Below, in pieces: positions 1 to 20,057 of a DNA stretch of 37,744 nucleotides (positions within the stretch are counted from its first letter, which is position 1; every line of letters begins with the position of its first letter). Source of the DNA: a virus; IMG/VR virus record IMGVR_UViG_3300047355_000338, positions 1 to 37,744 of that record. One strand, given 5' to 3'. Below the pieces are notes generated by a model that worked only from the letters and a program-made list of their open reading frames with translations, had not been told where the DNA came from and made no database searches. A program made the translations under genes and the position numbers.

Positions 1-1929
1 AGCTATACTACCTATGGCCGTCATTATTTCAGTTAAACCAACATCTTTATATTCTTGTAATGCTTTTCCTAATACAAATACCGCACCTGCCATTATTAAC
101 ATTGCAGCTGCTCCTTTAAGAACTGCACCCATATTTATTTTACCCATTGAACTTGTAGCATTGGCTGGACTTGGACTTACAGTTTTTGTAATAGAAGAAG
201 ATGTTGATTTTGACATTTTTTTGGCCAACATATCTTTGGCTTTTTTACCACCAAATCCTGCTGATATTTGTTTATCTGATAAAGATTTTTGAGCTTTTGT
301 TAATGCATTCGCCGTAAACAATTGTTTTACATAATCCTTTATTCCTTTTAATGCACCACCAACTGTTGTTCCCATTGCCTGAAAACCAAGGTTCATTTGT
401 CCTAAGGCAGTAATACCACCACCTAATGTTGAAATTAACCCACCTGATTTATTTACAGCAAAATTCAAAGCTTCTCCAACGAAACCAAATTCTACACCCA
501 TTATTTTACTAAGGTTGGCAGCTTTTTCTTGATTACTGGCCATCTTGGATAATTCTGCTACTGAAACGCCTAATAAATCAGCAGTTGCTTTCTTTTGGTA
601 ATAATCCATTTTATTAAATGCATTAACACCACCTAGTTGTCTTAATGTTTCTTTTGTAGCTCCCTCTATATCATTACTATACGCAAGTTCTCTTGCTTTG
701 TTTAAGTTTATATTTCTACCTAGTAAAGCTCCTAATTCTAATTCTTTAGTAATAGAGGATTCAAAATCTAATAAGTTTTCTGCAACTCCACTAAGTGTTT
801 TCATATTAACACCTAATTTTTGAGCATATCCAGCTGCTCTTAATATATTATCACCACCTTCTTCACCAAATAATGCAAATTCTTCAGCTGAAGCTGCTAA
901 ATCAGCCATAAGTTCTGATGGTATGATATTATTTTGTCTTGCAAACTCATTTGATGTTTTAATCATATCAGTTGCAACACTCGTAGAACCATTATTTAAT
1001 CTTGAGAATTGTCCAACTAAGGTAGCTGCTTCTGCACCACTTAGGCCTAATGTTTCTGACATTATACCTATGTTTGTTTTTAGAGCTAATGATGACCCTT
1101 CAGTACCTCCTAATTCAGATGATAATGTTTTTGCAGCTTCTGCAGAACCTTCAAAGAAAATCTCTAATAATGCCGTTTCTTGTGCAATACCACCAATTTG
1201 AAACATTGATGTTCCAAATTCTTTATTGAGTTTGCCTACTTTGCCAATAATAATACCCATTCCAGAGATAATACCACCTATTGCACCTACAATATTTCCA
1301 TATAGGGTTTTAGCTGTCATTAAAACTCCTTGAATGGATTTTTTCATTCCATCAATTACATCGTGTTGTTTTTGAATTAAGTCTTTTTGCTCACTTGACA
1401 TCTGAGAGTATTTGAATGCCAAATCATTTTGTTGTTTAAGTTGTTTTAGGTCTGCTTTTCCTAATTTTCCTTTAGCTTCAAGAATTCCAAATTCTTCGTT
1501 CCTTTTATTAATTAATGCTTCTCTTTGGTAATTATCTTCTGCACCTAATTGTGCTATATCTCTATTTATATCTGCAATTTTAAGAATCTGCTTTTGAGCA
1601 ATACTACCTGTTTTGGTTTTCTTTTCAATTAGTTTTAAATCTTGTAGCTGTAGGTTTGATAAATTATTATATATACTACCTAATGTTTTTAAAGATTTTT
1701 CTTCACTTCCAAGTGCATCTAATCTTGCTTGATTATTTGCTTTGATTTGTTTACCAGCCTCAACAATACGAGCATTTCTTTTTTCTTGTGCTTTTATACT
1801 TGCTTCACTTTGTTTTTGACCATCTTTTTCAGCTGCATTTATTCCCTTTTGAGCACGTTCAATTAAACCCTTAATTCTAAGAATTTCTTTTTGTATTCGT
1901 ACATTATCTTGTCCTGAAAATTCAGCCAT
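1..1929 (-). CDS. Tail tape measure-like protein (partial, C-terminus outside window)
   Basis: An unbroken frame begins at ATG 1929-1927 (AGGA about 9 nt upstream) and runs through all 643 codons to the left edge. Residues 1-200 are charged coiled coil (NVRIQKEILRIKGLIERAQK). A Gly-rich hydrophobic segment follows (NIVGAIGGIISGMGIIIGKV), then a helical central domain with LGLSGAEAATLVGQFSRLNN, SSITKELELGALLGRNINLN and ATADLLGVSVAELSKMASNQ. Near the edge another hydrophobic stretch appears (GAAAMLIMAGAVFVLGKAL). This mix of coiled coil, amphipathic helices and hydrophobic segments, placed after the tail tube and baseplate genes, fits a tail tape measure protein, which sets tail length and helps DNA entry. 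The total length cannot be seen. Confidence 0.8.
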   Translation of the reverse strand, partial: MAEFSGQDNVRIQKEILRIKGLIERAQKGINAAEKDGQKQSEASIKAQEKRNARIVEAGKQIKANNQARLDALGSEEKSLKTLGSIYNNLSNLQLQDLKLIEKKTKTGSIAQKQILKIADINRDIAQLGAEDNYQREALINKRNEEFGILEAKGKLGKADLKQLKQQNDLAFKYSQMSSEQKDLIQKQHDVIDGMKKSIQGVLMTAKTLYGNIVGAIGGIISGMGIIIGKVGKLNKEFGTSMFQIGGIAQETALLEIFFEGSAEAAKTLSSELGGTEGSSLALKTNIGIMSETLGLSGAEAATLVGQFSRLNNGSTSVATDMIKTSNEFARQNNIIPSELMADLAASAEEFALFGEEGGDNILRAAGYAQKLGVNMKTLSGVAENLLDFESSITKELELGALLGRNINLNKARELAYSNDIEGATKETLRQLGGVNAFNKMDYYQKKATADLLGVSVAELSKMASNQEKAANLSKIMGVEFGFVGEALNFAVNKSGGLISTLGGGITALGQMNLGFQAMGTTVGGALKGIKDYVKQLFTANALTKAQKSLSDKQISAGFGGKKAKDMLAKKMSKSTSSSITKTVSPSPANATSSMGKINMGAVLKGAAAMLIMAGAVFVLGKALQEYKDVGLTEIMTAIGSIA

Positions 1930-2184: not shown

Positions 2185-2214
2185 AAAAAAAAAGTGAGGA
2201 ATTATTTCCTCACT
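2185..2214 (-). terminator. Intrinsic terminator after the gp51-like frame
   Basis: A 9-bp stem AGTGAGGAA / TTCCTCACT with a 4-nt loop is followed by nine Ts on the coding strand. The stem overlaps the last codons and stop of the gp51-like frame. Confidence 0.87.
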
Positions 2215-2468
2215 CTTACATTTGGTCCTTTAGAACCACCTTTTTTGTTAACTTTATCGTATTCTGCCTTTTCTTTTGTTTTGGCATCTAATAACTTTTT
2301 AAAGTAAAATCTTCTCCAATGGATTGGCATCGTATATACCTCACTCCAAGTGAATCCATTACCATAGTTAACCATTTCCCAAATTTGATTATGAAGTTGG
2401 ACACTATAATCATTCGGAAGGGTAAAAAAACCCAACCCCAAATGGGATATCAAGTGCCTCCGTTTCAC
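2202..2468 (-). CDS. gp51-like baseplate/tail assembly frame, probably reached by frameshift
   Basis: The open frame gives 88 residues if read from a GTG at 2468, but the recognisable part starts only after the overlap: LPNDYSVQLHNQIWEMVNYG, GFTWSEVYTMPIHWRRFYFK, then a charged tail (AKTKEKAEYDKVNKKGG). The 'IxxxxYxGxGFxxxxVYxMPxxxRxFY' pattern is that of small gp51-like/tail assembly proteins encoded beside the tape measure in T4-like phages. No in-frame ATG exists before Met32, the GTG has no ribosome binding site, and a TAA lies two codons before it. The frame is +1 (or -2) to the upstream gene, and both frames share the TTT-TTT of a T7 run at 2424-2430. So translation by frameshift from the gp26-like gene is more likely than independent initiation. 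The gene ends in a terminator hairpin. Confidence 0.7.
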   Translation of the reverse strand: MKRRHLISHLGLGFFTLPNDYSVQLHNQIWEMVNYGNGFTWSEVYTMPIHWRRFYFKKLLDAKTKEKAEYDKVNKKGGSKGPNVRVRK

Positions 2469-3171
2469 CAGTTATATCTGATGTAAATTCGTATTTCAAA
2501 TCTAAATCAGGGGATATTTCTTTTATATACTTTCTAAGAGCTCTGGAATCTCTTGCAAGTAAATTATTTTTTACCCATTTGTTAATAAATCCTCTATCAT
2601 CATTATCACCAACTTTTAGAATCATATATCTTAATCGAGTAGATACTTCTTGATTTACTTCTGATTTTGTTAATCGTTGAAGTGATGCTATTTCAGCATT
2701 TATATCTTTTTCATCTTTATGTGATAATAATTTGAAAACTATTTCTGTTTTTAAAGTAGGTAATGTAAAAGAATATGTATTATCTTTACTTACTAATTTA
2801 TCATCTATATCTTTAGTTTGTACTTTAGATAAATCAATATTTACTTTTTGTGTTTCTAATGTAAAAGGGTCGGTTACTTCTACTTGATAATCTGCACCAT
2901 ATCCTAAGATACGAGTTGCTAAAAGAATTGCGTTTTTATCACCAATTAATATATCACCTATATCAATTCCGTCATCTACAATAACAGATTCAAATAGCTT
3001 ATCGAGCACCACCCCCTTCCTTATCAAATTTTGTGATGAAAGTATATCCTCTTCTTTAGCGGTCATATACTTTATTTCAACACTACCCTTTGATAATGGG
3101 CTTGATTCTGGGTATGGTTTACCCTTAGATGGAAGGTCTATTACTTCCGTAGGAAAATCATATTTTGCCAT
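2410..3171 (-). CDS. 26: Baseplate hub protein, gp26-like
   Basis: The protein is 253 residues (T4 gp26 is 208). DLPSKGKPYPESSPLSKGSV and EIKYMTAKEEDILSSQNLIR are the conserved N-terminal signature of the T4-type baseplate protein family that includes gp26: a short beta start followed by 'MTxKEExIL'. Later it has DKNAILLATRILGYGADYQV and SRALRKYIKEISPDLDLKYE. gp26 takes part in baseplate hub assembly. The last 20 codons overlap another frame (stop at 2202) that encodes a gp51-like domain, and a T7 run lies four codons before the TGA stop, so part of the product may be extended by frameshifting to about 322 residues. Confidence 0.78.
   Translation of the reverse strand: MAKYDFPTEVIDLPSKGKPYPESSPLSKGSVEIKYMTAKEEDILSSQNLIRKGVVLDKLFESVIVDDGIDIGDILIGDKNAILLATRILGYGADYQVEVTDPFTLETQKVNIDLSKVQTKDIDDKLVSKDNTYSFTLPTLKTEIVFKLLSHKDEKDINAEIASLQRLTKSEVNQEVSTRLRYMILKVGDNDDRGFINKWVKNNLLARDSRALRKYIKEISPDLDLKYEFTSDITGETEALDIPFGVGFFYPSE
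2423..2433 (-). other. Candidate programmed frameshift site (GGGTTTTTTTA)
   Basis: The coding strand reads GGGTTTTTTTACCC. In the gp26-like frame codons are GGG-TTT-TTT-TAC; in the gp51-like frame GGT-TTT-TTT-ACC. A +1 or -2 slip on the T run re-pairs tRNA-Phe perfectly. The flanking GGGT/ACCC could also form a small hairpin around the Ts. Confidence 0.55.
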
Positions 3172-3289: not shown

Positions 3290-3781
3290 TTAGTATTCTA
3301 AAATAGCATAATCATAAGATAATGTTAAACTAATTTCGACTGGGTCAGTTGAGTTTGACCAATCTAAATCATTAAACACTGCGTTATTGATAAATGCACC
3401 TTTTAGAGTCCATTGTTCAATCTTATCACCAACAGGTCCTAATAGGTAACATTGGATATCTTTTTTATAGAAATCTGCATATCCATCTCTACCTGTAATA
3501 GATTCGTGAGATGTTCTCACCCATTCCATTACTGCTTGAGCTCCTGAGGGAACGATTGGGTCATATAGAGTAATCTCTACATCTTGCCATTCACCTTTTC
3601 CTTTAAGTTTTCTTTTAACGTTAATGTGGTCAAGGGTAACAGTTTCAAATTGAATTGAAGGTCTGTTTGCTGTTTTTATAAGATATGAAGGGATACCATC
3701 GATTTCCATGATGAATCTATTCTTCATCTTCGGTTCGAAGTTGGTATAAAACATATCGTTAAATTCTAATACTTCTGCCAT
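3290..3781 (-). CDS. 19: Tail tube protein, gp19-like
   Basis: The protein is 163 residues, exactly the length of T4 gp19. Conserved tube features are present: KMKNRFIMEIDGIPSYLIKT, ANRPSIQFETVTLDHINVKRKLKGKG, the EWQDVEITLYDPIVPSGAQA stretch, and WTLKGAFINNAVFNDLDWSN followed by the final VEISLTLSYDYAI strand. It forms the rigid inner tube through which DNA passes. It directly follows the sheath gene as in T4 and ends before a strong terminator. AGGAG precedes its ATG. The identification is confident. Confidence 0.95.
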   Translation of the reverse strand: MAEVLEFNDMFYTNFEPKMKNRFIMEIDGIPSYLIKTANRPSIQFETVTLDHINVKRKLKGKGEWQDVEITLYDPIVPSGAQAVMEWVRTSHESITGRDGYADFYKKDIQCYLLGPVGDKIEQWTLKGAFINNAVFNDLDWSNSTDPVEISLTLSYDYAILEY

Positions 3782-6627: not shown

Positions 6628-7935
6628 TTATAATGTTACACTAATAGATGAATTACTTCCACCAATAGTTGTCCAACCTGACCTTAATCCAGATTGTATA
6701 TTTCTAACTCTTGCATAATATGTTCCAGCTGTAACTGCTCCACCTGCAAGTTGTATGTTTGATGCATTCCAATTTGTTTCATTTATAACAGGTGATGAAA
6801 AATCAGAATTATTATCTACTTGTACATCATATCCTGTAATACCACCAGAATCAGTATCAGGTGTTCCACCACTCCATGATAAGTTTGGATGTGAGTATGA
6901 TACACTTGTTGGTGCAGTTGGCCCATCAAAATCTGTATGTGAATTAGTTCCTTTGTTGTGAGTTATATATCCATTAGCTATATAGGTATCTGTATTTGAT
7001 ACATCTAATGATACAATCTCTACATCTTCTTCAATAATTTCAATTGATGAAATAGAAACTTGTTCTACTTCACTACCATTACCTTTTATTAAAATATCTC
7101 CTTCACTTAATAAGTGAGCTCTTTTAAATCTATAATCACTTCCATCTAATACTAAGAATGGATGTTCTGATGTACATTTTACATCTCCATTATTTATATC
7201 ATAATATTTACTTGCAAATGAGAAAACTACATTTTCAACTTCAACTTCTCTTTCAAATTGTCCAAGTTCACTTGTATTCCAATTCATATATTCAGCATCA
7301 CCGAAATTACTTAACTCATTTAATGAATATCCTTGTAATTTCATTCCTTCTTCAGCTTCACCTATTTCTATTGATGTTCCATCTGCCAATTTAATTGGTG
7401 TATCTGATGTTAAACATAATCCTGTTGTGTTACCATCGTAAGTATCTATTGAATAAACTGTTTTATCTTTATTTACACCATATCCATCACTACTACCTAT
7501 ATGGTCATTATAACCATCAGCAAAATTACCTCTAATAGTATGTGTTACTGCTCCATCTAAAATTCCATCTGAGTTATCCATTGCAGATACATCAAATGTT
7601 GCAGATAATCCACTATTAGTATTTATTGCTATTTTACTTCCAGCTGGTACTGACCAAGTTACATTTCCACTATAAGAACCATTTTTTGATGCAAAGTTTG
7701 AACCTGCACCTGTTGTTCCTATTGTATATGTTTCTGTTGTTGATTCTATAGCATATGTAAATCCACTCATTGAATCAATGGAATCTACGGCGAATGTAGA
7801 TAATCCTACATTATCACCTGATGATGGTGAGCCTCCTTTAATAGTACCTAGTGATACGTTTGCATCTTGTGTTACTCCATTAGCACCTGCTAAATCGTTT
7901 AATGAAAGGGTATCTCCTGAGCTTAGTGTTGGCAT
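6628..7935 (-). CDS. Virion/fibre protein with embedded intein-like Hint domain and C-terminal FN3-like domain
   Basis: The protein is 435 residues. Residues 1-173 are a beta-rich S/G/T/N domain (SGDTLSLNDLAGANGV, SVPAGSKIAINTNSG). Residues 174-327 are a Hint domain: C174 in CLTSDTPIKLADGT (block A), C254-T255-S256-E257-H258 in block B (TxxH), SLDVSNTDTYIANGY and H326-N327 at the end (blocks F/G). Residues 328-435 look like a fibronectin-III domain (PTAPTSVSYSHPNLSWSGGT, GTYYARVRNIQSG). The Hint part is about 154 residues with no homing endonuclease. The residue after the terminal Asn is Lys, not Cys/Ser/Thr, so canonical splicing is not expected; cleavage as in bacterial intein-like domains is. 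AGGAG precedes the ATG. It is the last gene of the fibre block. Confidence 0.82.
   Translation of the reverse strand: MPTLSSGDTLSLNDLAGANGVTQDANVSLGTIKGGSPSSGDNVGLSTFAVDSIDSMSGFTYAIESTTETYTIGTTGAGSNFASKNGSYSGNVTWSVPAGSKIAINTNSGLSATFDVSAMDNSDGILDGAVTHTIRGNFADGYNDHIGSSDGYGVNKDKTVYSIDTYDGNTTGLCLTSDTPIKLADGTSIEIGEAEEGMKLQGYSLNELSNFGDAEYMNWNTSELGQFEREVEVENVVFSFASKYYDINNGDVKCTSEHPFLVLDGSDYRFKRAHLLSEGDILIKGNGSEVEQVSISSIEIIEEDVEIVSLDVSNTDTYIANGYITHNKGTNSHTDFDGPTAPTSVSYSHPNLSWSGGTPDTDSGGITGYDVQVDNNSDFSSPVINETNWNASNIQLAGGAVTAGTYYARVRNIQSGLRSGWTTIGGSNSSISVTL
6955..7416 (-). other. Hint (intein-like) domain coding segment
   Basis: This spans codons 174 (Cys) to 327 (Asn) of the 435-residue protein. Catalytic positions Cys1, TxxH and His-Asn are all intact, while the +1 residue is Lys. 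Expected products, if active, are an N-terminal piece of 173 residues, the Hint domain, and a C-terminal FN3-like piece of 108 residues. Activity is inferred from motifs only. Confidence 0.78.
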
Positions 7936-10345: not shown

Positions 10346-13300
10346 TTAAGAAAGTTTACTCTTTAATTCATCAATCTGTTTTTGTTGGTCTTTAACTGCT
10401 TCGATAAGTAATCCAGTAAGTTTAGCGTAATCTACACCCTTAAATCCATTATCTCTATCAGTTACCAACTGTGGTAGAACTTTCTCAACATCTTGTGCAA
10501 TTACACCAACATTTGGTAATGATTGTTGTAACTCATCTGCATTATCATTCCAATTCCAAGTAACACCTTTAAGTGATTGTACTTTTTCAATTGGATTAGA
10601 AATAAGTTCTATATTATCTTTTAATCTTTCATCCGAAGAAGCGTATGCTACAACATCTCCACCTACGTTTAATGCTCCACCTATACCTACACCACCATCT
10701 ACAATTAATGCTCCTTCAGTTTTACTTGTTGATGCAGTTGCATCATCTATTCTAAGTGTTCCGAATGTTACATCATCACCACTACCTAATCCTAAATTAC
10801 CAGCAGTTAGTGTTCTTGTTGAAACACTACCATTTGCATCAGTAACATGACCATCTGAGTTAGTTGTTATATTGAAATCTAAATCAGATATTACAGTTGC
10901 TCCTGTTAGAGCACCAGTATCAACAGAAATGTCATCTCCATCAAAAGTTGGGTGAGTATAATTAATTGTTCCTGCAGCATCTACACCTAAGTTAGTTCTT
11001 GCAGTTGATGCGTTTGCTAAATCAGATAAGTTACTTGATTTAGCTAATTTTGTTCCAACTGTTGTAGTTAAAGCAACTACATCACTATCTCCATTTGCAA
11101 TACTTGCTGAAATTTCACCTAATGTATCTAATGTTGCTGGTGCAGTACCAATTAAAGCAGTAAGTTCTCCTTGTACATAAGCAGTTGTTGCAATTTTAGT
11201 TGAATTATCATCAGCTGAAGGAGTTGGTGCAACTGTTGTTCCAGTAAATGTAGGTGATGTGAACATCGTACTTTTACTTTCGTTTGTTACATTTCCTAAT
11301 CCTAAATCTGATGCAGTTAATGTTCTTGTTGAAACACTACCATTAGCATCTGTTACTAAACCACTTGTGTTTGTTGTAATATTAATATCTAAATCTGATA
11401 TTACAGTTGCTCCTGTCAATGCAGTTGTATCAATATCTATATCATCACCCGCTAAATTAGTTGGTAATACATAATTGTTTGCCGATGCAGCAATACCATC
11501 TAATTTATTTTTTAAAGTAGTTGTAAAGTTGTTATCAGTTTGAGATGCAACTACAAAATCAATGTTACCATTAGTATCATCATATCCAACACTAATTCCT
11601 GTTTCTGTTCCATCTAACATTCCACCTACGAAATCTTCAACTTGTTCTTGTGTTAGTTGTGTGTTTGTGTTTGTTGTATATGAAGGTGTACCGAATGTAC
11701 CATCATGTTTTAAGAATTCTCCACTTGAACCAGCTGCTGGTACTAAATTCCCATTACCTGTTCCTATTAAAGTTCTTGTTTCAGCTGCAGTTCTATTAAC
11801 TTCAGCACCTGCTTCAATACCATCTAATTTAGAATGGTCATCAGTTGTAAAGTTTTCATCTGTTTGTGATGTAACTGAGAAATCTAATGAATTTCCAGTA
11901 TCATCATAAGTAACACTAATACCACTTTCGGTATTACTACTTACCATTCCACCTACTATATCTTGAACTTGTTCTGTTGATAATTGTGTGTTATTTGTTG
12001 TAATTGAACCACCTAATGAAATAGCTGAACCATCTATTGTTATACTTGAATTTGATAATTGTGAATTTCCTATACTTGTTATTTGTGAAGAACCAGATAC
12101 AACACCACCAATTAATTCAGCTGAAAGTGTATCACCACTTAAAATCATATTAACTTCTGTTGTATCAGAAACTGCTAAGTTTGTATGTGAAGAAATATCA
12201 ACAGTACCTGCTGTTATTTCCTGTCCACTTAATGATATATAAGTGTTACCAGCTACAGTTACATCTGTTGAATTATCTGTTCCAGCAGCATCTACTCCAA
12301 GTGCCGTTCTTGCAGCACCTGCTGAAGTTGCACCTGTACCACCACTTCCAACTGGTACTGTTCCACCAGTTATTTCTTGTCCACTTATTGATAAGTAATT
12401 TGTATTTCCTAATGTTACATCTGTTGAATTATCAGTTCCAGCAGCATCTACACCTAAGTTTGTTCTGGCAGTTCCTGCATTTGTTAAATCTGATAAGTTA
12501 CTTGCTTTTGCTAATTTTGTTCCAACAGTTGTTGTTAGTGATGCTAAACCTGATTGGTCTGATGCTAATGAAGCGGATAGTTCACCTAAAGTATCTAGTG
12601 TTGAACCAGCCGTACCTACTAAATCAGTAAGTTCTTGTTGTACATAAGCAGTTGTTGCAATTTTAGTTGAATCATCATTTGAACTTGGTGTTGGTGCCGC
12701 GGTTGTTCCAGTAAATGTAGGAGAAGTAAACATTGTTGATTTACTCTCATTTGTTACATTACCCAAACCTACATCACCTTTTGTAGTTCCTTGTGCTCTT
12801 AAACTTGCATATGTTCCACTTTGTGAGAAAGCAGCAACATCACTAATCTGTGATGAATCAATAGATACTTGTGCTGAACCTGATATTACTCCACCAATTA
12901 GTTCTGCGGATAAAGTATCACCACTTAAAATCATATTAACTTCATCAGTATCACTTACTGCTAAGTTTGTATGTGAAGATATATCTACTGTTCCTGCAGT
13001 TATTTCTTGTCCACTTAATGATAAGAAATTACTACCAGCTAATGTTACATCTGTTGAATTATCAGTTCCAGCTGCATCAACTCCTATTGTAGTTCTAACT
13101 GCTCCTGCAGATGTATCATCTAATATTGTTTGTGCGAATGTTGAAGCAACTTGGTCTGAACCAGATACTACTCCATCACCTACGGTAAATGTTACTGTTT
13201 CATCTGAACCTTGGTTAAGTGTTATTGCACCACCACCATCTAATCCTGCACCTGCACTAAATGTAATTGTATTATTATTAACACCACCTAATGCTTGTAC

Positions 13301-14851
13301 TTGAGATGAACCAGATACAACTCCACTTGGTAATATTGTTTGTACATCACCTGTGGTTACAGTACCTATTGTTACTATTGAGTTATCACCAGCATATGTT
13401 CCACCAGCAACAGTTGCCAATGTTGAATTAAATGCTTGTACATCTGAACCAATTGCAACTCCTAAGTTAGTTCTTGCAGTTGAAGCATTTGTTAAATCAC
13501 TTAAGTTTTGGTCTTTTTGTAGTTTTCCACCTACTGTTGTTGTTAATGCAACTACATCACTATCCCCATTTGCAATACTTGCAGAAATTTCTAATAATGT
13601 ATCAAATGCTGCAGGAGCACCACCTAATAAATCAGATACTTCTCTTTGTACATAAGCAGTTGTTGCTATTTTTGTTGAGTTATCGTTATCAGCTTGTGTT
13701 GGTGCAGTTGGATTACCAGTTAATGCTGGTGAAGCTAAATCAGCTTTGGTATCAATTTCTGTTTGTTGAGCAGTTGATACTGGTTTGTTAGCATCAGAAG
13801 TATTATCTACATTTCCTAATCCTAAATCACTTGGTGTTAAATCTCTTGTTGAAATACTACCATTTGCATCTGTTACTAATCCACTTGTATTTGTTGTTAT
13901 GTTAAGGTCTAAATCTGATATTACAGTTGCTCCACTTAATGCAGTTGTATCAATATCTATATCATCACCAGCTAAGTTAGTTGGTAATGAATAATTGTTT
14001 GCCGATGCAGCAATTCCATCTAATTTAGTTTTGTCTCCATCTGCAAAAGCTCCTTCTGATGGTTTAACTTGTAGTGTTGAGATTGTTACACCTTTAACAC
14101 CAGCTAAATCAGTTAATTCTGAATCCATCAATGCTCCTGCTGCAGTTACATTACTTGTATCTGTTACATCTGCACTTGCCTCAATACCATCTAATTTAGA
14201 ATGGTCGGCAGTTGTAAAGTTTTCATCTGTTTGTGATGGGAATGTAACAACAAAATCCATATTTCCATTAGCATCATCATAAGTTACTGCGATACCTGTC
14301 TTAGTACCACCAGTTGCAACAAGTGCTCCTGCTATATCTTGAACTGCTTCTGTTGATAATTGTGTGTTTGTAGTAGTTACTGAACCACCAAGTGAGATAA
14401 CTGAACCATCTATTGTTATACTTGAGTTTGCTAATTTACTATTTGCTATTGATGCTAATGTAGATGCTCCCCCAGCTGCAATACTAATATCTCCACTTAC
14501 ATTTGCAAATATAGAATCTTCTATATTTGTGAAACTTACTTTCTTTTCAGTTCCTGCATCACTAATAAGGAAATTATCTGATTGTGCAATTGAAGCTCCT
14601 CCTAATGCATCAAGAATATCAATATTAAAATCACTTGCGGCTACTCCTGTTAAGTTAGAACCATCTCCAACAAATGAACCTGTAAATGAACCAGAATAAT
14701 TAACAGCTGGTTGTATTCCTTGGTCAACTCCACTTGAGTTTAAGGTTATGGTTTCAAGAGTACCATTCTGTACTTGTAAGGTTATTAAGTTACCATTCTC
14801 ATCCGATGGGAATTGTAATGAACCTGAAATTTTGGGATTGTGTATTATCAT
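10346..14851 (-). CDS. Long tail fibre with C-terminal S74 self-cleaving chaperone (second copy)
   Basis: The protein is 1501 residues. MIIHNPKISGSLQFPSDENG starts it, followed by a TGSFVGDGSNLTG motif. The shaft contains tail-fibre repeats of the kind DLGLGNVDNTSDANKPVS, SPALTGNPTAPTQ and STKIATTAYVQ in several copies, and large internal duplications (DDIDIDTTAL-GATVISDLD-NITTN three times). From about residue 1403 it carries the S74 chaperone: SSDERLKDNIELI, VGVIAQDVEKVLPQLV, coiled coil at the end. S1406 and K1411 fit the Ser-Lys dyad of this autoprotease family. It is a paralogue of the 1494-residue fibre only in the chaperone and some shaft modules. AAGGAAA precedes the start; an AT box (14879-14890, TAATATTTATTA) lies 27 nt before it. 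Confidence 0.88.
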   Translation of the reverse strand: MIIHNPKISGSLQFPSDENGNLITLQVQNGTLETITLNSSGVDQGIQPAVNYSGSFTGSFVGDGSNLTGVAASDFNIDILDALGGASIAQSDNFLISDAGTEKKVSFTNIEDSIFANVSGDISIAAGGASTLASIANSKLANSSITIDGSVISLGGSVTTTNTQLSTEAVQDIAGALVATGGTKTGIAVTYDDANGNMDFVVTFPSQTDENFTTADHSKLDGIEASADVTDTSNVTAAGALMDSELTDLAGVKGVTISTLQVKPSEGAFADGDKTKLDGIAASANNYSLPTNLAGDDIDIDTTALSGATVISDLDLNITTNTSGLVTDANGSISTRDLTPSDLGLGNVDNTSDANKPVSTAQQTEIDTKADLASPALTGNPTAPTQADNDNSTKIATTAYVQREVSDLLGGAPAAFDTLLEISASIANGDSDVVALTTTVGGKLQKDQNLSDLTNASTARTNLGVAIGSDVQAFNSTLATVAGGTYAGDNSIVTIGTVTTGDVQTILPSGVVSGSSQVQALGGVNNNTITFSAGAGLDGGGAITLNQGSDETVTFTVGDGVVSGSDQVASTFAQTILDDTSAGAVRTTIGVDAAGTDNSTDVTLAGSNFLSLSGQEITAGTVDISSHTNLAVSDTDEVNMILSGDTLSAELIGGVISGSAQVSIDSSQISDVAAFSQSGTYASLRAQGTTKGDVGLGNVTNESKSTMFTSPTFTGTTAAPTPSSNDDSTKIATTAYVQQELTDLVGTAGSTLDTLGELSASLASDQSGLASLTTTVGTKLAKASNLSDLTNAGTARTNLGVDAAGTDNSTDVTLGNTNYLSISGQEITGGTVPVGSGGTGATSAGAARTALGVDAAGTDNSTDVTVAGNTYISLSGQEITAGTVDISSHTNLAVSDTTEVNMILSGDTLSAELIGGVVSGSSQITSIGNSQLSNSSITIDGSAISLGGSITTNNTQLSTEQVQDIVGGMVSSNTESGISVTYDDTGNSLDFSVTSQTDENFTTDDHSKLDGIEAGAEVNRTAAETRTLIGTGNGNLVPAAGSSGEFLKHDGTFGTPSYTTNTNTQLTQEQVEDFVGGMLDGTETGISVGYDDTNGNIDFVVASQTDNNFTTTLKNKLDGIAASANNYVLPTNLAGDDIDIDTTALTGATVISDLDINITTNTSGLVTDANGSVSTRTLTASDLGLGNVTNESKSTMFTSPTFTGTTVAPTPSADDNSTKIATTAYVQGELTALIGTAPATLDTLGEISASIANGDSDVVALTTTVGTKLAKSSNLSDLANASTARTNLGVDAAGTINYTHPTFDGDDISVDTGALTGATVISDLDFNITTNSDGHVTDANGSVSTRTLTAGNLGLGSGDDVTFGTLRIDDATASTSKTEGALIVDGGVGIGGALNVGGDVVAYASSDERLKDNIELISNPIEKVQSLKGVTWNWNDNADELQQSLPNVGVIAQDVEKVLPQLVTDRDNGFKGVDYAKLTGLLIEAVKDQQKQIDELKSKLS
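11380..14030 (-). repeat. Near-identical direct repeats within the 1501-residue fibre gene
   Basis: About 130 bp around 11380-11510 and around 13900-14030 are nearly identical, both encoding LPTNLAGDDIDIDTTAL and ATVISDLD modules, about 2.5 kb apart in direct orientation. A third, more divergent copy of the ATVISDLD module lies near 10860-10940. Such repeats could permit in-frame deletion or duplication of shaft modules. Confidence 0.6.
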
Positions 14852-15572: not shown

Positions 15573-18500
15573 TTATTGATTTTTTTCTTTTAATTCTCTG
15601 ATTTCACTTGAAAGTTCTTTTATTCCCTCTATTAGTAATGATACCAATTTATCATATTTTACAGCCTTATACCCATTTTCTTTAGTAGTTACCAATTCAG
15701 GTAATACTTTTTCTATTTCTTGAGCAATTACACCATAATCTTTACCTTTATAAATATCTTGTTTTTCTTCATTCCAACTAAAACTATTACCAGAAATTGA
15801 ATTTATTTTTTCTATTGGATTTTTAATCGGTTGAATATTATTTTTTAATCTCTCATCTGAGGATGCGTAGGCAATAATATCATCAGTAGCTTGTATAGTA
15901 CCAGTTACATGAATTCCATTATTTATATCGAATCGTGTTCCTGAATGATTCCAAGTAATCGATGCATTTGCATCACTACCTCTATCAACTTCAATACCAC
16001 CACCATTTGCAGCTGATGAGTTTGCTGAACCACTTGCAACTGTAATTAGTTTATCTTCAATTGATAATTCAGAAGTTGAAATTTCTGTTGCAGAACCTAA
16101 TACTGTGAAATCACCACTTATAACAACATCACCCGAAGCGTTAATATCATTGAAAGTTACATCAGAATTTGTTTTTACATTTTGGTTACTTCCTCCTAAG
16201 TATCCCCATTGTGTAGCTGATATTGTAGATGCTCCGATATTTGCAAGTTGAGTTACTTCCCCACTTGTTAAAGATACACCTTTTACTTTATCTACTGTAG
16301 CGTTACTAGCATTACCACTAATATCACCACCCATTGGTACAGAACCACTAAATACTCCTTCTGCATCTAATTTAGTTTTTACTCTTGTATCTGTATAGTA
16401 AAGATTTGATGAACCCTCTGATAAATCATCAGTATCAAATCCTGTTAATGATATTTGAGAAGAACCAGAAACTATTCCAGCTGGAATATTTGATAAACCG
16501 GTATATGATACTTGAGATGAACCACTAATAACTGTTTCAGTATCTAATTTTTTCTTTATTCCTTCGTTAAAATGTAGAGAACCAGTATCTAAGAATATAC
16601 TTCTATTAGTATCAATAGTACCACCACCATCTAAACCTTTACCACTTCCAACTGATATAGATGAGTGGTCAATATGTTCGTTTGCTACAAAACCAGTCGT
16701 ATCATCGTGAGATATTTGAACAGATGATGAAATTACTCCCTCTGTATCTAATTTATCTTTTACTTTACTATCAGAATATTGATTTATAGAAGAATAATTT
16801 GTAGTTGAAGTTACATCTATTTGAGATGAACCACTAACCACACCACCTTTTAAGTTTGCTGATAAAGTATCACCACTTAAAATCATATCTATATTAGAAG
16901 TATCTGATACTCCTAAATTAGTATCAGTTGAAATATCAACACTTATTAAATATGAACCTGTTTCTGATGCAAGTTGGTCTATTCTTATATCTTGAACACC
17001 TTGTTGATTATCATTAGAAGATGTATAATCATTTAAAGATGATATATTAGTTTGGTCATCATATGAACCAGTATTTGATTCTATATTATTTAATCTTGAT
17101 TGAACTAAACTTATATTTGTATCATTTGATGATGTATATGAATTTAGTGAATCTAAAATACCAACAACTTGTTCTGATGAAGATACTAAACCATCTCCTA
17201 ACTCATTACCATATCTTGAATCTAAATCTGAATAAAGTTGTGAAGAACCTGATACTATACCACTACCATTTGTGATAGCAGCAAGAGAAATACTTCCACC
17301 AAGTGCAACATTTTGAGAAACAATAGTTATTTCATTATTTTGTATTTGTGTACCATTTATTTGTGATGAACCACTTACTACTCCATCAGGAAAATGTGAT
17401 AAAAATGAACCACTAAGTACTGCATCAGTATCTAATTTTGTTTTTACTTTACTATCAGAGTATTGGTTTATAGAACCATAGTTTGTAGTTGCAGTTACAT
17501 CTATTTGTGATGAACCACTTACTAACCCACTAGTTGATGCAGGAATTCTTGCATCTACTCCAGCAGTAAAGTGTATAGAACCAGTATCAATTGCAATAAC
17601 TACGTTACCTACATTACCATATGCACCACCCGATTCTGTTCCTTGTTGTGTGTGTACTATACCTGTTGCAGATGGAGATATTGTTGATGTAGAGTTTACA
17701 GCAGTTATATCACCAGCACCAGCTTCAATTAAAGCATCATTTACTGCTTTTGTTGTTGGTATTGAGTTAGGGTCATCTGCAATAGAAGCAGAAACATTAA
17801 AAAATGCAGAAGTTCCTAAAGTTCTTTTCTTTAATAATCCACTTACATCAAATAATGCATCATAATCAGTTCCACCCCCAGCTGCAACACTTGAAAGTGT
17901 TAGTGTACTAAATGTTGGTGAATCATTTGTGTTTAATCCTAAATCTACATTTGTAGAAACACTATTAATACTAGCCGTTATTGAACCTTGATGGTTTGAT
18001 GCAAATGAAGAACCACTTACAACACCTTCGGTATTTAATTTATTTTTTACATCTGAATCTGTATAATGAGATAAATCTGATATTTGAGATTCAGTAATTG
18101 TTATTTGTGATGAACCTGATACTACTCCACCAATTAGTTCAGCGGATAAAGTATCTCCACTTAGTATCATGTTAACTTCTGATGTATCGGATACTGCTAA
18201 ATTAGTATCATCTGATATATCAACAGTTGTTAAGTAAGAACCAGTTGATGTTTCTATATTATCTAATCTATCTTCTATTGAAGAAGTTGTAGATTCAATA
18301 TTTGATATATCTGAATCATTTGATGATGTGTATGAATTTAGTGAATCTAATATTCCAATCACTTGAGATGAACCACTAATTACTGTTTCAGTATCTAATT
18401 TTGATTTTACTCTTGAATCTGTATAATAAAGATTACTACCTTCTGTTAAATTAGCCGTTGTAGCAGTTCCTAAATAAGAACCACTATGTATATTATCATT

Positions 18501-20057
18501 ATCTAATTTTGATTTTACTCTTGTATCGGTATAGTAAAGATTACTAGCTTCAGTTACTTGGTCGGTATCAATACCTGTTAGTTCCCCACCTTCTCCTTTG
18601 AATCCTACTGATGAACTTACTTTAGCATCAAATACGAATTGAGATGTATTGTGGTCCCATTGTAATGATTTATTAGCACCATCAATTTCTAATCCTGCTC
18701 CATCTGCAGCTGCTGAATCAGCAGAACCACTTGCAACTGTAATTAATTTATCTTCTATTCTTAATTCTGTTGAAGATATTTCTGTTGAAGAACCTAAAAC
18801 TGTTAAATCACCAGTAATTGTCATATTACCAGTAAATGAACCTGTGTTAAATGTTACATCTGATGTTGTTGATAAATCTTGATTGATTGTATCTAAGTTT
18901 GCTTTATTTGAATGTGAGTGAGATACATCACTTAATAAATCTAATCTACTTTCAAACGATGAAGTTGTAGAATGAATATTTGAAATGTTTATATCAATAG
19001 AAGATGTAAATGTTTCTACATTATCTAATCTTACATCTTGTAAAGCTTGTTCAGTTGTTATAGAACCAGTTTCAGTTGAAAGTTGGTCTAATCTCGTATC
19101 TTGTGCAGCTTGTTCAGTTTCAATAGAACCTGTTTCGGTTGATAATTGGTTTAATCTTACATCTTGTGCAGATTGTTCGGTTGATATAGAACCAGTTTCA
19201 GTTGAAAGTTGGTCTAATCTTACATCTTGTGCAGCCTGTTCTGTTGATATAGAACCAGTTTCAGTTGAAAGTTGGTTTAACCTCACATCTTGTGCAGATT
19301 GTTCAGTAGCAATAGAACCAGTTTCAGTTGAAAGTTGGTTTAATCTATCTTCAAATGATGAAGTTGTAGAATGAATATTAGTAATATTAATATCATTTGA
19401 AGCAGTATATGAATTTAGTGAAGTGTTTAATACTTCATCATCTAAATATGTTTTATCTATTATAGTACCTTGCCAAGTACCTGTTGCAATTGTACCAACA
19501 GTAGTAATTGAACTAGCACCTGTAAATCCTGTCTTATCGGCTGATTCTAGTACTACTTGTGATGAACCACTAAATACACCATCTCCACCTACTTGTAAAA
19601 ATCCTAAATCATCTATTTGTTGTGATGAAGAAACAATACCACTACCATTTAAAGTAATATTATCAATTGATGCAGAAGTTGCATATATGTGTCTCCATTT
19701 TTTTGAGTTTGAACCTAAATCAAAGGTATCATCTGTATCAGGAATAATAGAAGAACTAAGGTCTGCGGATATTACTATATTATCAGTATCTTGGTTTCCT
19801 AAAAATAAATTACCACCTATTGTTAAATCACCTGTAGCAGTTATGTTAGTTGCTAAAATATTAGAACCAGTTATATTACCTGAAATATTTAATGAACCGC
19901 TATTTGATTCATCTAGTTTTGCTAGAATCTTATATTGAGTATTAGAACCACTACCATCACCAACTACAACAGTCTCTATGTCTTTATCATAGAATAATTC
20001 TGATTGTTGTATTGAGCCTGATGGAGTTCCTCTTCGTAGTTTTAAAGTTGCTGCCAT
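15573..20057 (-). CDS. Long tail fibre with C-terminal S74 self-cleaving chaperone
   Basis: The protein is 1494 residues. N-terminal MAATLKLRRGTPSGSIQQSELFYDK is a fibre entry domain. The shaft has [IV]SGSSQ[IV] turns, NLYYTDTRVKSKLD segments and five 21-residue heptad repeats (STETGSI-TEQ-AQDVRL). The C-terminus from about residue 1397 is the intramolecular chaperone (Peptidase S74 family): SSDERLKNNI, YGVIAQEIEKVLPELV and a final coiled coil. In this family the chaperone trimerises the fibre and then cuts itself off with a Ser-Lys dyad five residues apart. S1400 and K1405 fit, so cleavage before S1400 is predicted, removing 95 residues. The start has AGGAAG upstream. The 217-residue gene follows after 13 nt. 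Confidence 0.88.
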   Translation of the reverse strand: MAATLKLRRGTPSGSIQQSELFYDKDIETVVVGDGSGSNTQYKILAKLDESNSGSLNISGNITGSNILATNITATGDLTIGGNLFLGNQDTDNIVISADLSSSIIPDTDDTFDLGSNSKKWRHIYATSASIDNITLNGSGIVSSSQQIDDLGFLQVGGDGVFSGSSQVVLESADKTGFTGASSITTVGTIATGTWQGTIIDKTYLDDEVLNTSLNSYTASNDINITNIHSTTSSFEDRLNQLSTETGSIATEQSAQDVRLNQLSTETGSISTEQAAQDVRLDQLSTETGSISTEQSAQDVRLNQLSTETGSIETEQAAQDTRLDQLSTETGSITTEQALQDVRLDNVETFTSSIDINISNIHSTTSSFESRLDLLSDVSHSHSNKANLDTINQDLSTTSDVTFNTGSFTGNMTITGDLTVLGSSTEISSTELRIEDKLITVASGSADSAAADGAGLEIDGANKSLQWDHNTSQFVFDAKVSSSVGFKGEGGELTGIDTDQVTEASNLYYTDTRVKSKLDNDNIHSGSYLGTATTANLTEGSNLYYTDSRVKSKLDTETVISGSSQVIGILDSLNSYTSSNDSDISNIESTTSSIEDRLDNIETSTGSYLTTVDISDDTNLAVSDTSEVNMILSGDTLSAELIGGVVSGSSQITITESQISDLSHYTDSDVKNKLNTEGVVSGSSFASNHQGSITASINSVSTNVDLGLNTNDSPTFSTLTLSSVAAGGGTDYDALFDVSGLLKKRTLGTSAFFNVSASIADDPNSIPTTKAVNDALIEAGAGDITAVNSTSTISPSATGIVHTQQGTESGGAYGNVGNVVIAIDTGSIHFTAGVDARIPASTSGLVSGSSQIDVTATTNYGSINQYSDSKVKTKLDTDAVLSGSFLSHFPDGVVSGSSQINGTQIQNNEITIVSQNVALGGSISLAAITNGSGIVSGSSQLYSDLDSRYGNELGDGLVSSSEQVVGILDSLNSYTSSNDTNISLVQSRLNNIESNTGSYDDQTNISSLNDYTSSNDNQQGVQDIRIDQLASETGSYLISVDISTDTNLGVSDTSNIDMILSGDTLSANLKGGVVSGSSQIDVTSTTNYSSINQYSDSKVKDKLDTEGVISSSVQISHDDTTGFVANEHIDHSSISVGSGKGLDGGGTIDTNRSIFLDTGSLHFNEGIKKKLDTETVISGSSQVSYTGLSNIPAGIVSGSSQISLTGFDTDDLSEGSSNLYYTDTRVKTKLDAEGVFSGSVPMGGDISGNASNATVDKVKGVSLTSGEVTQLANIGASTISATQWGYLGGSNQNVKTNSDVTFNDINASGDVVISGDFTVLGSATEISTSELSIEDKLITVASGSANSSAANGGGIEVDRGSDANASITWNHSGTRFDINNGIHVTGTIQATDDIIAYASSDERLKNNIQPIKNPIEKINSISGNSFSWNEEKQDIYKGKDYGVIAQEIEKVLPELVTTKENGYKAVKYDKLVSLLIEGIKELSSEIRELKEKNQ
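19032..19346 (-). repeat. Five tandem 63-bp repeats in a fibre gene
   Basis: Five consecutive 63-bp units each encode 21 residues of the form (N/D)QLSTETGSI(x)TEQ(x)(x)QD(x)RL. Twenty-one residues is exactly three heptads, with L/I positions spaced for a coiled coil, so copy number would set shaft length without disturbing the heptad register. Units differ at a few positions, mostly silent or S/A/E/T and N/D swaps. Confidence 0.85.

Follow-up and report, generated by a model that had tools for sequence, protein, structure and literature searches.

A conserved candidate +1 frameshift site joining gp26-like and gp51-like reading frames in a large group of T4-like phages

Introduction

The closest described systems are gpG and gpGT of phage lambda and the equivalent tail assembly chaperones reportedly treated by Xu, Hendrix and Duda in 2004. 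As at the locus described here, the lambda gene adjoins the tape measure gene, gives a short form and a long form that frameshifting extends by a small C-terminal domain, and has its slip a few codons ahead of the first stop; the lambda slip is -1, whereas the slip proposed here is +1 at UUU UUU U in a gene of the T4 gp26 family (PF12322). This G-T frameshift scheme has been described as conserved "except T4", -2 frameshifting is known in phage Mu and a +1 frameshift is known in the tail chaperone gene of the haloarchaeal myovirus HSTV-2 (PMC5009743); HSTV-2 is likened to the present case by description, as a +1 in a myovirus tail chaperone gene, and differs in its host. T4 gp51 has been described as essential, of unknown function, and required yet absent from the particle (PMC3004832). 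Like the products proposed here, gp26 and gp51 of T4 are a short and a long form of one protein family, but in T4 two genes provide the two forms.

The title of Vladimirov, Gautam and Davidson (2022) reportedly argues that T4-like phages use a mechanism other than frameshifting, and the strongly conserved +1 site in the present clade stands in contrast to that title. According to papers citing that work, some T4-like phages have a short gene together with a long fusion gene (PMC10885494) and poly-T -1 signals are known in other T4-like phages (PMC12846349). Going by these citing statements, a tail assembly chaperone role for gp26 and gp51 of T4-like phages has evidently been published by Vladimirov et al. 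already, so that neither the chaperone idea nor the duplication is new, nor probably are the -1 cases. The original prediction made for the present DNA had suggested that a frameshift here would tie the T4 baseplate proteins to the general tail chaperone scheme; the connection holds, but as far as the citing papers convey the content of the 2022 study it was made there and is not novel. None of the papers searched described a conserved +1 form with flanking signals, and what appears to be new is the +1 version, with its wide conservation and composite signal.

Results and Discussion

Gene order and reading frames

The window is the whole stretch of DNA analysed, 37,744 nucleotides of the IMG/VR virus record IMGVR_UViG_3300047355_000338. 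The relevant features are:

3290..3781, minus strand: tail tube gene (gp19), upstream neighbour (PF06841, 8.9e-9; phrog_4542, 9.9e-30)
2410..3171, minus strand: gp26-like gene, short product of 253 aa, predicted N-terminal form of the tail assembly chaperone
2457..2461, minus strand: Shine-Dalgarno-like GGAGG, 29 nt 5' of the P-site TTT
2435..2448, minus strand: putative stem-loop AUCCC AUUU GGGGU just 5' of the slip site, based on folding energy against synonymous controls
2424..2430, minus strand: T7 run of the candidate slip site GGG TTT TTT TAC, with conserved T7 and constrained TTT codons
2410..2412, minus strand: first-frame stop TGA, four codons after TTT TTT
2202..2423, minus strand: second (+1) frame, 73 codons and TAA, predicted to give the long product its gp51-like C-terminal domain
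1943-2143: 66-aa ORF between the second frame and the tape measure gene
1..1929, minus strand: tape measure gene, downstream neighbour, cut by the window end

The gp26-like protein ends in GVGFFYPSE followed by the stop (last codons GGG TTT TTT TAC CCT TCC GAA TGA), and the second frame is open on the minus strand from 2471, after a TAA at 2474-2472, to the TAA at 2204-2202. Relative to the first frame it lies at +1, which is the same frame as -2, and a fusion would therefore comprise 322 aa after a +1 slip or 323 aa after a -2 slip. The original prediction had placed the gp26-like gene, the overlapping frame and the T7 run correctly, and its estimate of 322-323 residues agrees with these frames. 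The product of the tape measure gene shared 34% identity over 197 aa (E 4e-16) with the protein annotated as tape measure in Flavobacterium phage immuto, and the order of tail tube gene, gp26-like gene and tape measure gene was identical in immuto, Mel-JY01, SP-15 and LIS04. A strong hairpin resembling an intrinsic terminator (GTGAGGAA ATAA TTCCTCAC, then T9; 2185-2213, minus strand) lies across the end of the second frame, ahead of the 66-aa ORF and of the tape measure gene.

Conservation of the slip site

Two sets of homologues were compared, 80 IMG/VR loci with gp26 identities from 100% to 46% and, after a second scan, 93 representatives of less than 92% identity. The second frame lay at +1 in 78 of the 78 IMG/VR loci in which it could be matched and likewise in the 93 representatives. 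All homologues had a T run, with the first stop 3-6 codons past the slip; the run was T7 in 91/93 representatives and TTCTTTT in the remaining two (L013 and L077). Synonymous constraint was strongest at the two TTT codons, which ranked first and second of the 247 codon columns of gp26. The codon before the run never ended in T (0/93, when 51 were expected from codon usage), and where the following codon was for tyrosine it was TAC in 41 representatives and TAT in 3. Given that the 93 representatives are phylogenetically non-independent, naive P values computed from such counts are not given as probabilities. A tandem-slip heptamer for -1 frameshifting (X XXY YYZ) does not describe this site, as the frame is +1 throughout and no T precedes the run. 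The original prediction had named loss of the T run with an unconserved overlap as evidence against it; in the gene pairs compared here both the run and the overlap were conserved, and judged from these alignments the arrangement is far beyond chance.

If the true run were T6, a homopolymer error in assembly or sequencing would have split a simple fused gene, since removal of one T fuses the two frames exactly. When viral contigs were scanned with a pattern permitting 5-8 T's, T7 was found in 109 of 109 distinct gp26 contexts, which indicated that T7 is not a sequencing error, and the isolates Mel-JY01 and RM378 carry the identical run; we regard such an error as extremely unlikely. One locus in a Winogradskyella MAG, outside the scan pattern, reads TTT TTT TTC.

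Coding nature and start codons of the second frame

Past the slip, the second frame was open for at least 62 codons in the 93 representatives wherever it was not cut, and differences in it were distributed over codon positions 3, 1 and 2 as 4378, 2762 and 1478. In 46/93 homologues the second frame had no ATG, GTG or TTG up to and including the slip, and in 43/93 there was none up to codon +8; in several homologues the earliest of these codons was found only at codon 26-72. In the window the first second-frame ATG is codon +16 after the slip. The original prediction had described the second frame as having no ATG and no ribosome binding site before its conserved part; the statement on the ribosome binding site needs correcting, since GGAGG is present at 2461-2457.

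Translation of the second frame as a separate protein, by coupled or internal initiation at a GTG or TTG with this GGAGG, could make use of the in-frame GTG 2468 and TTG 2453 of the window, and some relatives do have a separate gp51 gene with an ATG (LR756511, in which the ATG overlaps the stop, and the cyanophages and KVP40). However, the GGAGG is only 3 nt from the TTG, and about half of the homologues offer no start codon in the stretch from the upstream stop to the slip, which makes the GGAGG implausible as an initiation signal; separate initiation would also leave the constraint on TTT TTT unexplained. Separate initiation is thus very improbable, and homologues in which the second frame has its own ATG and ribosome binding site, which had been named as evidence against a frameshift, are not the general pattern. 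Given the fixed +1 relation, the constrained slip codons and the lack of a start in about half of the homologues, the comparison indicates that a short form and a frameshift-extended long form are probably made from one gene.

Direction of the slip

The original prediction had left open whether the frames are joined by a +1 slip, a -2 slip or slippage of RNA polymerase. Comparative support for a programmed frameshift joining the gp26-like and gp51-like frames beside the tape measure gene was strong, and natural variants of the site favoured +1 over the other two. UUU_Ynn is a +1-prone site in bacteria (PMC5009743), and a UUU_Y or CUU_U site with re-pairing at +1 was kept in TTC TTT T (L013 and L077), TTT CTT T (immuto), TTT CTA (LR756508), TTC TTT C (the Streptococcus-labelled phage GXN1) and TTT TTT C (SP-15). 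All of these variants shorten or interrupt the T run and several lose -2 re-pairing. Since sites without T7 retain a +1-prone sequence, this favours a +1 ribosomal slip. The sequence TTT TTT AGT of Listeria phage LIS04 counts against it, as perfect re-pairing is possible there for the first TTT only and the slip would be needed at that codon.

A -2 ribosomal frameshift on the T run, as in Mu, would reach the same frame with one extra Phe at the junction, and with T7 the Phe-tRNA on the second TTT could re-pair on the TTT two bases back. Perfect -2 re-pairing is lost in L013, L077, immuto and L084 (TTT CTA), all of which keep the arrangement and the +1 re-pairing, and a -2 slip is accordingly quite unlikely. 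Slippage of RNA polymerase, deleting one U in some of the mRNAs to give an in-frame fusion message, would be in line with a conserved and homopolymeric run. T7 is short for that process, however, the run was never seen lengthened at its 5' side, the arrangement was kept in variants with an interrupted run or just T4, and the TAC bias and the upstream elements would have no place in such a process, which makes it very unlikely.

Flanking RNA elements

In the 30 nt upstream of the run, the mean folding energy across homologues was -6.9, compared with -4.2 +/- 0.2 after synonymous resampling and -5.2 +/- 0.2 when the codon usage of the region itself was used. Resampling was used because RNAalifold found no consensus for the upstream stem-loop in an ungapped alignment, pairing registers being different between lineages. 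A GGAGG or AGGAG was present at a fixed place about 25-29 nt 5' of the P-site codon in 71/93 representatives, when synonymous resampling expects 5.9 and reached at most 12. Ordinary Shine-Dalgarno sequences precede many of the window's genes.

In 11 lineages without GGAGG, a strong hairpin was found 2-3 bases past the A-site codon, with compensatory both-side changes at 4/7 pairs. The two types of element did not co-occur: by a looser pattern, 73 homologues had the GGAGG-type element, 11 the strong downstream hairpin and 9 neither, these counts being clustered by descent. Most homologues combine one of these two elements with a hairpin upstream of the slip site. Judged by the resampling, the upstream hairpin and the GGAGG are under synonymous selection, and both kinds of flanking element presumably play a role in the slipping. 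Pairing of the upstream GGAGG with the downstream CCUUCC, noticed by eye, was dropped since several lineages have CCTTCC without GGAGG, and no convincing match was obtained in an Rfam search.

The candidate site resembles the UUU_Y sites and the CUU_U site of prfB in that a single P-site tRNA would re-pair +1 on UUU downstream of a Shine-Dalgarno-like element. In prfB a stop codon occupies the A site and the Shine-Dalgarno sequence is about 3 nt away, whereas the present site has neither: the A-site codon is a sense codon (TAC or TGG), and the GGAGG is about 25-29 nt away with a hairpin between.

Protein families and models

The gp26-like protein matched PF12322 (T4_baseplate) with E 2.8e-7 and 30.9 bits against a curated cut-off of 24.5, and phrog_150 ("baseplate hub") with E 3.4e-10. 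The short form and the C-terminal domain were modelled separately. The AlphaFold2 model of the short form (pLDDT 90.5) matched SP-15 gp26 and baseplate hub proteins of T4 type, with TM 0.82-0.85 to the SP-15 baseplate hub subunit. PDB sequence and fold searches gave no clear solved relative; in Foldseek, the match of the short form to HK97 gp13 (2OB9) had the highest probability among the 50 matches listed and was weak (E 3.5, probability 0.14).

The model of the C-terminal domain consists of three helices (pLDDT 82), and a fold search with it gave no match. Compared directly with Pfam and PHROG, the second-frame product had no convincing match, and none to phrog_634. Profile comparison of the second-frame family with P-SSM2 gp51 by hhalign gave E 5.5e-5 for one comparison, with a probability of 66%, and the second frame occupies the same gene position as gp51. 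No match was obtained by hhalign between the families and single T4 gp26 or gp51 sequences, for which Pfam and PHROG profiles were needed. Synteny, the short/long design and the T4 relatives suggest a chaperone function.

Isolates, hosts, cyanophages and T4

Among isolates, the +1 layout occurs in immuto, Mel-JY01, GXN1, SP-15, LIS04 and RM378. In the isolate annotations examined the long protein was missed or split; those of Flavobacterium phage immuto, Bacillus phage SP-15 and Listeria phage LIS04 have no entry for the frameshifted domain. Assembled bacterial genomes contained nine related contigs, of which six carried Bacteroidota labels (Saprospiraceae, Flavobacteriales, Flavobacteriaceae, Winogradskyella, Sphingobacteriales), binning being a mere hint of the host, two were unlabelled and one was from Prochlorococcus and of the -1 type. 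The very large and mostly uncultured T4-like group with a clear +1 site apparently infects Bacteroidota.

In P-SSM2-like cyanophages, KVP40 and Atu_ph07, gp26 ends in T TTT TTC one codon before the stop. TTT TTC was found in 79 of 79 distinct genes of these phages, at a background TTC usage of 17%, the preceding T was present in all when 56 were expected, and reading in the -1 frame continues without a stop into gp51; the cyanophages appear, from these genes, to use a backward (-1) slip. The gp26-gp51 pairs of cyanophages and KVP40 (P-SSM2, S-SM2) are like the present locus in that a poly-T slippery site ends gp26 and a gp51-like frame follows directly, and differ in having T TTT TTC, a -1 frame and a gp51 ATG instead of T7, a +1 frame and usually no ATG. 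In P-SSM2-like cyanophages and KVP40, gp51 has its own ATG despite the -1 heptamer at the end of gp26.

Genes 26 and 51 of T4 are divergently oriented. T4 gp51 matched PF12322 over residues 1-201 (3.9e-52), phrog_150 over nearly its full length and phrog_634 at its C terminus (1.2e-23), and is hence a gp26 paralogue carrying the gp51 tail. On a family tree with long branches, the number of exchanges between +1 and -1 was not settled.

Proposed mechanism and implications

Very probably the gene encodes a tail assembly chaperone and its translation involves a programmed +1 ribosomal frameshift. As far as alignments can tell, both frames are conserved and coding and keep a constant relation to each other, and selection acts on the slip codons as well as on the flanking elements. 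We infer that most ribosomes would give the short product and a minority the long one. The majority would make the 253-aa gp26-like protein, terminating four codons past the slip site; in the minority, the peptidyl-tRNA-Phe on the second UUU (P site 2427-2425) would re-pair +1 on UUU with U2424 skipped, the next codon would be ACC (2423-2421) and the product would be the 322-aa gp26-gp51 fusion. If lambda gpG/gpGT is taken as a guide, the part common to both forms would serve to coat the tape measure protein, and recruitment of tail-tube subunits would fall to the rarer C-terminal tail.

Frameshifting is the rule for tail chaperones, and T4 has been named as the exception to it (PMC5009743). 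Given a +1 site in a large part of the T4-like group, this exception seems peculiar to T4 itself. It is possible, and we propose this only tentatively, that the stem-loop brings the GGAGG near the slipping ribosome and that the downstream hairpin substitutes for it in some lineages, which would be a new type of +1 stimulator; the chaperone family would then have three solutions (+1 slip, -1 slip and the T4 duplication) for one two-protein ratio. The slip site offers a small, naturally occurring +1 system whose elements can be separated, suited to ordinary reporters.

Other features of the window

A 435-aa ORF (6628-7935, minus strand) contains a stretch that by eye resembles a Hint domain of the intein/hedgehog type (CLTSDTPIKLADG...TSEHPFLV...ITHNKG). 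Two fibre-like proteins of about 1500 aa each are encoded on the minus strand at 10346-14851 and 15573-20057, and the C-terminal sequences of both resemble by eye an endosialidase chaperone domain (SDERLKDNI).
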